From the NCBI GenBank assembly GCA_014730235.1, contig WJIO01000280.1, positions 1-6,608 on the forward strand: a stretch of DNA of 6,608 nucleotides, in the 5' to 3' direction. Both the position numbers and the translations under genes were made by a program. Positions within the stretch are counted from its first letter, which is position 1, and each line of letters starts with the position of its first letter. The notes under the pieces are model-generated. The model was not told where the DNA came from. It ran no database searches and worked only from the letters and a program-made list of their open reading frames with translations. Of this stretch, positions 392 through 3,862 are shown piece after piece. Source of the stretch: Candidatus Poribacteria bacterium. GTDB lineage: Bacteria > Poribacteria > DTPJ01 > WJIO01.

Positions 392-395
392 CATG

Positions 396-547
396 CTCCT
401 GAGAAACTCCAAAGCCCAAAACCCGCCTGATCGCTCAGGAGAATGGTGTTACCAATCAAATCATATTTTTCCGGTCAGGCGGACTAGGGACTTATTTAAT
501 CTCCTGAAAAGTGTTTCGGCCCGAATCCCGTTCGGTTGTTCAGGAGA
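396..547 (+). other. Structured region with interleaved inverted repeats (candidate RNA pseudoknot plus hairpin)
   Basis: Three perfect 8-bp inverted repeats sit in about 150 bases. P1 pairs CTCCTGAG (396-403) with CTCAGGAG (434-441). P2 pairs 423-433 with 472-482: 8 perfect pairs (CCGCCTGA/TCAGGCGG) extending to 11 with one G-U. P3 pairs TCTCCTGA (500-507) with TCAGGAGA (540-547) and encloses a CCGAA-TCCCG-TTCGG hairpin (521-535). P1 and P2 interleave, with the 3' strand of P1 directly following the 5' strand of P2: the topology of an H-type pseudoknot. P1 and P3 strands share the core CTCCTGA/TCAGGAG, so alternative pairings (501-507 with 435-441) are also possible, as in a switch. It lies before the likely start of the secreted protease, so a 5' UTR element is one reading; a DNA-level repeat or binding-site cluster is another. 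I cannot match it to a known riboswitch. Confidence 0.45.
491..499 (+). promoter_or_regulatory. Possible archaeal TATA-like element upstream of the metalloprotease gene
   Basis: The AT-rich string CTTATTTAA stands out in a locally GC-richer stretch. If it is a TATA box, transcription would begin around 520-525, inside the P3 hairpin, leaving a leader of about 60 bases before the ATG at 585. No clear BRE is visible. This is a weak call made on sequence resemblance and position only. Confidence 0.2.
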
Positions 548-584
548 GGTATCGCAAAAACCTGCATTTACTGCCGGACGGGCT

Positions 585-1403
585 ATGGGCTTTTTCATTC
601 TTTTTGTCTTATTATCATTTTCAACATCAGCGTTCGAACTCATCCTGGATGATGGTGTCAATGAATCCATGGTAGAGCTTGCCCTTTCCCGTGTCCCTGC
701 CAATGCGACCATAGGTATTAACAAGATATATGTGTATTCCGGAAAATGCCATGACTTTTCATGCAAGATAAGAAAGCTCTTTGGTGGCAATGATATTTAC
801 GGCAAATACCGCCTTAATCCTTCTTTTCTGATAACCCACAAGCTGAAATCAAATATCTATATCTACCACACTAACGAAACAAGCATCTATGAATTCTATT
901 CAACACTCCAGCATGAATTAGGCCATCATAATGATTATAGGCTTAATGGTATCACAGAGGAATTTTTTGATTTTACGTTTTTGAAAACAGGCGAGGAATA
1001 CGATAACGACCCTTCTGAAATTTATGCCAATAACTTCGAATTATTGCCCAAATGCGGCTGCACCATAGACTACTGTTACGCTCACGACAGACTTGCCATG
1101 ACCAAACCCATTACTTACAAAACACCATCAAGCGGGTCTGTCGAGGGAATGCAAGAGAGGGGGGACGGTATCCATATTCACACTCCAACTGATGAGATTC
1201 TATCCTTCTTCTCTGCATTTTTTCCCAGATTTCACGCTCAAGACAGGCAGGATAGGAACCATGTTCTCTCTTATTTTCTTGCACACCCAAGTTCTGAACT
1301 GCCTGATCAAGAGGTCTATAACCCCCAGGTTAAGACAATTAAGGAAGGCGAAGTTTCTATCCATTCTTTGCCTTCCTTTTTTTCAGAGGTTGATAAAAAA
1401 TGA
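585..1403 (+). CDS. Secreted zinc metalloprotease-like protein (HExxH)
   Basis: Numbering is from the ATG at 585 (272 aa). Residues 1-16 form a hydrophobic signal peptide (MGFFILFVLLSFSTSA) with probable cleavage after STSA, so the protein should act outside the cytoplasmic membrane. The zinc site is H110-E-L-G-H114, and E145 in the segment DPSEIYANNF fits the third ligand of gluzincin-type enzymes, where a second helix carries E-x-x-A-N. Cysteines (CHDFSC and CGCTIDYC) could form disulfides in the exported protein. Substrate and family are not recognised. The frame is also open from an ATG at 393 that has a fair GAGGT site at 378-382; that form adds 64 residues of poor protein character, encoded by the inverted-repeat region, and would bury the signal peptide. 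I prefer 585 although its own ribosome site is weak and its signal lacks an N-terminal basic residue. The stop overlaps the next start (ATGA). Confidence 0.7.
   Translation: MGFFILFVLLSFSTSAFELILDDGVNESMVELALSRVPANATIGINKIYVYSGKCHDFSCKIRKLFGGNDIYGKYRLNPSFLITHKLKSNIYIYHTNETSIYEFYSTLQHELGHHNDYRLNGITEEFFDFTFLKTGEEYDNDPSEIYANNFELLPKCGCTIDYCYAHDRLAMTKPITYKTPSSGSVEGMQERGDGIHIHTPTDEILSFFSAFFPRFHAQDRQDRNHVLSYFLAHPSSELPDQEVYNPQVKTIKEGEVSIHSLPSFFSEVDKK
1341..1383 (+). terminator. Hairpin plus T-run inside the end of the metalloprotease gene
   Basis: Bases 1341-1353 pair with 1366-1378: nine perfect pairs (AAGGAAGGC/GCCTTCCTT) extending to 13 with one G-U, around a 12-base loop. The stem runs straight into a T-run at 1377-1383. 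This is the form of an intrinsic terminator. Archaeal termination depends mainly on the oligo-U and can use a hairpin. It lies about 20 bases before the stop codon of the protease gene and just upstream of the ribosome site of the next gene, so it could attenuate transcription into that gene. Confidence 0.5.
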
Positions 1404-2596: not shown

Positions 2597-3862
2597 ATGA
2601 CCAGGAGCAAAGACACAGAAATCAGCAAGTTCCAGATTGAGATACTCCTGAGAATCCAGAAAGACCCTCACATCACAAGGAAAGAACTCTCCAGATTACT
2701 AAATAAGCACCCGAAGACAATAATATACCATCTGAAAAAACTCATATCCGCCGGATTAGTCAAAGAGAAAGACAACAAGAATTACAAATCATATTCCCTC
2801 ACCAAAGAAGCAGAACAATGGCTGAAAAAAGACAAATCCCCGATAATCAGCAAACCCATCACCCGTCTTCATTTCTACCAGCTCAAATTCGATATAATAA
2901 AGGACTATGAAGGAAACCTCCTTGAGATTGGCTGGAAAAAAGGAAGAGATCCTGATAAATGGAACTGGCCTTCATACACTCACAGGATAGAATCGCAATT
3001 AGGCGAGATATTCATAGAGAAGACCCCGAGATCATTTCTTGTAACTCTCCCGAAGATAATAACTTCACATCCCGCAGAAGCCGACAGAATAAAGAACAGA
3101 TTGGCATTTGCAGTCTCTGACTACTTGAAAAAAGAACTGCCGGGCTTGAAAATAGGCATATTCGACAAGGACAAAAAGATACAAACTTCATTCTCCCGTA
3201 CACACAGCCATTATGGAATCCCTGGAGATCCTCTGGCATCCGCCTGCACCAGATTGGGAATGACTTTGAGATCAGATAGACTGCTGATAGACAACTCCCC
3301 CGGAAAAGAAAACCTGAAAGATATTAACGGAAATATATATGTCGGCGAAACAGAAGCCATAGACAGAAAATGGAGCCAGCAGGACTGTTATTCTCTTTTC
3401 GACAGATACCATGAGATGATAGATGGGAACTTATCCGCCGGAAGGATTGATACTGTGGAGGATGTAGCTGTCAGCACAAGGCAGATGGCCGAATCCTTTG
3501 AGAAAGAGCAGGAGTCCCAGAACGAAGAACTGGAATCCCTGAAAGAGACTCAGAAACAGCATGAAACCGCTATCGGAAAGATAACCGCCATTCTGGACAG
3601 AATTGATAACAGCATGAAACAAAGGGATGATGCCTTTGCCAATATTCAACAGCAGCAGGAGACATTCCAGACCGCATTGAACCGTCTTGCATATGCTGAG
3701 ACTGCTCTTTCTGAGCGTGTTATCAGCCCACTGACGGCGTTAAAAGAGCAGATAGTATGTTATGATGATGTTAGTTCAGGAATCGCTCAGAGAGCAATAC
3801 AGGAGCTTACAGAAGGCGAGAAAAGGGAGCTGAAAAGACATATCGGTAAATTATACTGGTGA
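2597..3862 (+). CDS. Winged-helix protein with a C-terminal coiled coil (421 aa)
   Basis: Residues 9-77 form a winged helix of ArsR/MarR type: the helix LLRIQKDPHITRKELSRLL, the recognition helix region KTIIYHLKKLISAGLV, then a wing KEKDNKNYKSYSLT. Residues 85-260 form an unrecognised domain with several Trp (WKKGRDPDKWNWP) and a conserved-looking I-D-N-S-P-G-K-E motif near 231-238. Residues about 292-375 are heptad-like and rich in Gln and Glu, a probable coiled coil for oligomerisation, and the C-terminus is basic. No ATPase, nuclease or membrane motif is visible. The ATG at 2597 follows the previous stop by three bases and lacks a good ribosome site. Similar layouts occur in plasmid and virus regulators, partition adaptors and replication-origin binders of archaea. 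Which of these applies here is open. Confidence 0.7.
   Translation: MTRSKDTEISKFQIEILLRIQKDPHITRKELSRLLNKHPKTIIYHLKKLISAGLVKEKDNKNYKSYSLTKEAEQWLKKDKSPIISKPITRLHFYQLKFDIIKDYEGNLLEIGWKKGRDPDKWNWPSYTHRIESQLGEIFIEKTPRSFLVTLPKIITSHPAEADRIKNRLAFAVSDYLKKELPGLKIGIFDKDKKIQTSFSRTHSHYGIPGDPLASACTRLGMTLRSDRLLIDNSPGKENLKDINGNIYVGETEAIDRKWSQQDCYSLFDRYHEMIDGNLSAGRIDTVEDVAVSTRQMAESFEKEQESQNEELESLKETQKQHETAIGKITAILDRIDNSMKQRDDAFANIQQQQETFQTALNRLAYAETALSERVISPLTALKEQIVCYDDVSSGIAQRAIQELTEGEKRELKRHIGKLYW

Follow-up and report, generated by a model that had tools for sequence, protein, structure and literature searches.

Candidate tandem pseudoknot leader RNA upstream of a putative secreted-protease gene on a virus- or plasmid-like contig

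Genes and context of the contig

The window analyzed here is an entire contig of 6,608 bp from a 5.5 Mb genome bin with a bacterial 16S. Its genes encode a winged-helix protein, a C2H2 protein, a PolB-type exonuclease, and an SNF2 helicase, and judging from these the contig looks like a virus or a plasmid. The exonuclease matches Methanocaldococcus fervens tailed virus 1 at 45% identity along part of its sequence, so the contig may be an archaeal element binned with bacteria; its genes resemble those of archaeal viruses, whereas the 16S of the bin is bacterial, and the contig may thus be misbinned. At its 3' end (3731-3862), the winged-helix gene shares about 80% identity over 133 bp with another contig of the same bin, C147 (L010:16898-17030, minus strand), in a stretch adjoining transposase genes; the shared stretch may be what is left of a related element, or a fragment that is mobile.

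The feature under study precedes a gene for a putative secreted metalloprotease (Table 1). The gap before ATG585 measures 193 nt, compared with at most 76 nt for the other intergenic gaps of the contig, and is spanned by an in-frame extension, the reading frame 393-1403 staying open throughout. The alternative start ATG393 lies 1 nt past the upstream stop codon, with GAGGT 10 nt before it, and has a better Shine-Dalgarno-like sequence than ATG585. Nevertheless, ATG585 is more likely to be the start codon because of the signal-peptide-like N terminus located there, as judged by eye. The protein had no match among Pfam, NCBIfam, and PDB sequences or toxin families, and its structure prediction (pLDDT 35) was not used.

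Table 1. Features of the tandem unit and of the reading frame that follows it
Feature	Position	Strand	Partner	Description and basis
Alternative in-frame extension	393..584	+		64 codons of the same ORF as the downstream gene, preceded by GAGGT; unlikely to provide the main start
Unit A	394..500	+		First copy of the pseudoknot unit; in-register alignment with 499-605, direct repeats at spacing 105
P1A 5' strand	396..403	+	434-441	CTCCTGAG; helix list
Candidate short outer stem, copy A	414..417 with 487-491	+		GCCC/GGG(A)C; same motif at 519-522/587-590 in copy B
P2A 5' strand	423..433	+	472-482	11 pairs including one G-U
P1A 3' strand	434..441	+	396-403	CTCAGGAG, includes AGGAG (Shine-Dalgarno-like); helix list
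P2A 3' strand	472..482	+	423-433	Helix list, copy comparison
Unit B	499..605	+		Second copy, whose 3' end enters the start of the downstream gene; alignment, direct repeats, helices
P1B 5' strand	500..508	+	539-547	TCTCCTGAA; P3 of the first-pass annotation; helix list
P2B 5' strand	527..536	+	573-582	CCCGTTCGGT; 10 pairs, three both-sided changes relative to P2A
P1B 3' strand	539..547	+	500-508	TTCAGGAGA; helix list
P2B 3' strand	573..582	+	527-536	GCCGGACGGG; stops 2 nt short of ATG585, over its weak ribosome-binding region
Downstream gene	585..1403	+		272 aa with a signal-peptide-like N terminus (MGFFILFVLLSFSTSA) and an HELGH motif; putative secreted metalloprotease

Anatomy of the duplicated unit

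A first-pass annotation of this locus had described three perfect inverted repeats, which are present where it placed them: P1 (8 bp), P2, and P3 (9 bp). Its extension of P2 to 11 pairs holds, with a Watson-Crick core of 8 bp and one G-U pair in the extension, as does the direct contact between the P2 5' strand and the P1 3' strand (433|434). It had read these repeats as one pseudoknot and a separate P3, and this layout is replaced by a tandem duplication of a single unit. What had been called P3 serves as P1 in a second copy, and this copy likewise carries an interleaved P2, so that the feature reaches to about 605. The CCGAA/TTCGG hairpin noted within P3 does exist (521-526/530-535), but a stronger helix competes with it. 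The full list of possible helices in the region 385-625 is headed by P2A, P2B, P1B, and P1A; the second of these had been missed.

The unit is about 105 nt long and present as two copies 105 nt apart, as marked by direct repeats 396-405/501-510 and 414-442/519-547, both at that spacing. Duplication is modest at the sequence level: the score of 13 at offset 105 stands near the 99th percentile of the region and is ordinary for the whole window. The P1 repeats of the two copies agree at 14 of 16 positions, and the remainder of the unit has diverged. In each copy the strands follow the order P1 5', P2 5', P1 3', P2 3', which is an H-type layout, so that each unit would be able to form an H-type pseudoknot with a P1 of 8-9 bp and a P2 of 10-11 bp. 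The P2 5' and P1 3' strands are separated by 0 nt in copy A and 2 nt in copy B, loop 1 measures 19 and 18 nt, and loop 3 measures 30 and 25 nt, respectively. Stem energies are approximately -13 (P1A), -21 (P2A), -13 (P1B), and -17.5 (P2B) kcal/mol, with a GAAA cap.

The P1 strands of the two copies are nearly identical, and therefore four alternative pairings of 8-9 bp are available within and between the copies: 396-403 with 434-441 or with 539-546, 435-442 with 500-507, and 500-508 with 539-547. The first-pass annotation had likewise proposed that mutually exclusive pairings are possible through the sequence common to the P1 and P3 strands. Unit A additionally contains a 14-codon frame, from ATG443 (1 nt past the AGGAG of P1A) to the TAG at 485-487, which is a possible leader peptide; it has no counterpart in unit B.

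Compensatory changes, strand, and chance expectation

Comparison of the two copies revealed four pairs that are changed on both sides and still paired, three of them in P2 (from copy A to copy B, C426-G479 to U531-A578, U428-A477 to C533-G576, and A430-U475 to G535-C574) and one in P1 (G403-C434 to A508-U539). Among the other differences, one pair becomes G-U and one pair is lost in copy B. The proposal of a pseudoknot-forming RNA is supported, and more strongly than in the first-pass annotation, by this second interleaved pair with compensatory changes between the copies. The proportion of paired cells in the two-copy alignment is 97.4%, vs 32-50% after sliding by 1-3 columns. The shuffle control of the covariation (37 of 500) is weak because there are just two sequences, and the covariation rests on this one pair since no homologous locus was found.

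Three pairs, U431-G474, U532-G577, and U536-G573, can form on the plus strand only. The folding z-score of 388-590 is -3.0 on the plus strand and -1.0 on the minus strand, and the stretch 401-550 has the lowest z-score among 260 stretches. Together, the G-U pairs and the folding z-scores point to an RNA of the plus strand. Duplicated protein-binding sites on DNA, or hairpins acting as single-stranded DNA or as cruciforms in replication, recombination, or transposition, would fit the conservation of the P1 repeats in an otherwise diverged unit and the virus- or plasmid-like nature of the contig. This explanation is improbable: the P2 compensation includes G-U pairs, which is typical of RNA, the unit was found nowhere else in the 5.5 Mb genome or in genomes of the phylum, and no recombinase or transposase gene was recognized on the contig.

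An alternative at the protein level, in which translation starts at ATG393 and the two copies form a 64-residue N-terminal extension with an in-frame duplicated segment, the pairing being incidental or secondary, is unlikely but deserves some weight. Besides the favorable position of ATG393 and its 64 open codons, the repeat period of 105 and an internal gap of 6 nt are both multiples of three, and the 393 frame is the best of six by codon usage. Its codon score over 393-584 is nevertheless -0.08, in the low tail of the real genes of the contig (median, 0.13). The clearest repeat spans 16 codons, of which 6 are the same in both copies, 9 carry a nonsynonymous difference, and 1 carries a synonymous one; third-position differences are not in excess over the alignment as a whole. 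The frame from 393 thus shows no protein-like constraint between the copies; a protein-like substitution pattern, named in the first-pass annotation as evidence against an RNA, is absent from this comparison, which is limited to the two copies. Furthermore, a signal peptide placed at residue 65 would be unusual, and coding would leave the P2 compensatory changes unexplained.

That the complementary segments cluster by chance is very improbable, despite the number of 8-bp inverted repeats in the whole window being at chance level (13, vs 12.7 expected from shuffles). The high repeat density that had been claimed for the locus therefore stands locally and not window-wide: just 4 of 300 shuffles of the window placed four such repeats within one 160-nt stretch. 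Three of these four are not independent because all derive from one duplicated unit. A pseudoknot scan with fixed score and loop limits, chosen once the helices were already known, returned exactly two interleaved helix pairs in the window, P1A/P2A and P1B/P2B. At the same limits, none was seen in 660,800 bases of Markov sequence modeled on the window, and among 1,500 locally composition-matched shuffled regions one had an interleaved pair and none had two. A looser cut-off returned the same two pairs in the window, with at least one pair in 2.3% and two in 0.2% of the null regions; at a still looser cut-off, these proportions rose to 13% and 6%. P2B was found only once copy A was known; random mutation or shuffling of the copy produced an equally good helix at that place in 0.2-0.5% of cases, a test closer to independent than the scan.

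Comparison with known systems and a proposed regulatory model

In the collections searched, neither the RNA nor either of its two flanking genes had relatives. Homologues of the downstream protein were absent from phages (one chance match only at E-values up to 10), plasmids, viral contigs, genome contigs, and relatives; in 84 genomes of the phylum there was one weak match of 40 residues and no homologue. Among the viral contigs, the upstream gene, the HTH protein, and the exonuclease had no relatives, and the helicase had one distant relative (L007), in which no credible RNA match was seen. DNA patterns of the unit gave no matches, or chance matches without P2, and distant blastn of 360-640 against phages and plasmids found none. 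Matches of model R1 in four relatives were rejected as chance, the P1 pairing being not intact or the match being sited in other genes; three lay within a conserved tRNA-nucleotidyltransferase-like gene. Model R2 recovered the window alone, plus one weak match (E 0.3).

No Rfam family, including preQ1, SAM-II, fluoride, glutamine, twister, and HDV-like RNAs, matched at gathering scores, in line with the earlier impression that no known riboswitch fits; with E-values up to 10, just two microRNA models appeared, far under their cut-offs. HDV-like and twister ribozymes were dropped for lack of an Rfam match and, for the HDV-like fold, also because its strand order differs from that of the duplicated unit. 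With no homologous locus and no Rfam match found, support for the RNA comes from two copies on a single contig.

The leader resembles the preQ1 classes and SAM-II, in which two stems likewise interleave within an mRNA leader and the final 3' strand adjoins the start codon, and its tandem arrangement recalls that of SAM-II/SAM-V in Pelagibacter (PMC11508383, PMC11625349). It differs from preQ1 and SAM-II in its longer stems and loops (L1 of 18-19 nt, L3 of 25-30 nt), in the absence of an Rfam match, and in a downstream gene that is protease-like and not metabolic; in contrast to all of these, including tandem SAM-II/SAM-V, it consists of two copies of the same unit. As in pseudoknot riboswitches that control translation by hiding the ribosome-binding site, a 3' strand (P2B, 573-582) lies over that site in the gene that follows, if ATG585 is the start.

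The candidate tandem pseudoknots also invite comparison with the type III antitoxins ToxI, CptI, and TenpI, whose tandem repeats lie directly upstream of a gene, each fold as an H-type pseudoknot, and measure about 34-36 nt (PMC5086642). By this analogy, the locus would encode a tandem RNA that acts in trans or is processed, and whose partner is the downstream protein; we consider this highly improbable. The two units here are 105 nt long and diverged, no terminator-like site was found in 1-1700 and hence none between the repeats and the gene, and the downstream protein, with its signal-peptide-like start and HELGH motif, matched no ToxN-family endoribonuclease in the protein searches described above.

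With moderate confidence, we interpret 394-605 as a 5' leader of two tandem pseudoknot-capable RNA units controlling translation of the putative secreted-protease gene from ATG585, and thus as what is probably an uncatalogued RNA switch for that gene. The sequence itself shows the helices, the in-register duplication, the compensatory changes between the copies, and where P2B lies relative to ATG585; a translational switch would be the simplest reading of them. The leader would be transcribed within a polycistronic mRNA. With AGGAG lying in the P1 3' strands and 2 nt separating P2B from ATG585, folding would conceal the region around the start: in folded copy B, P2B would mask the ribosome-binding region, P1B would mask the AGGAG at 542-546, and translation would be low. 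Unfolding would free the start, as might re-pairing between the copies (396-403 with 539-546, or 435-442 with 500-507, 8 bp each). Candidate triggers are a ligand, a protein, temperature, or the transit of ribosomes from the upstream gene. As a counterpoint, translation from ATG393, if any, would have ribosomes unfold the leader RNA.

Tandem pseudoknot leaders are rare, and for viruses and plasmids whose hosts are uncultivated hardly any structured regulatory RNAs have been catalogued. A more ambitious and doubtful interpretation is that the leader represents a new class of structured-leader RNA carried by an uncultivated virus or plasmid, possibly archaeal, in which the duplicated pseudoknot and P1 exchange would form a two-domain switch controlling a secreted protease. 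If real, the duplicated unit, with its exchangeable P1 strands, would offer a compact system in which cooperative or either-or RNA switching could be tested, linked to a secreted protein encoded by a virus-like element.

A CTCCTGA/TCAGGAG inverted repeat also occurs in a viral contig (L022:12903-12957). It lacks P2, is probably unrelated to the duplicated unit, and lies just before the ATG of an HNH-like gene, whose Shine-Dalgarno sequence it would hide.
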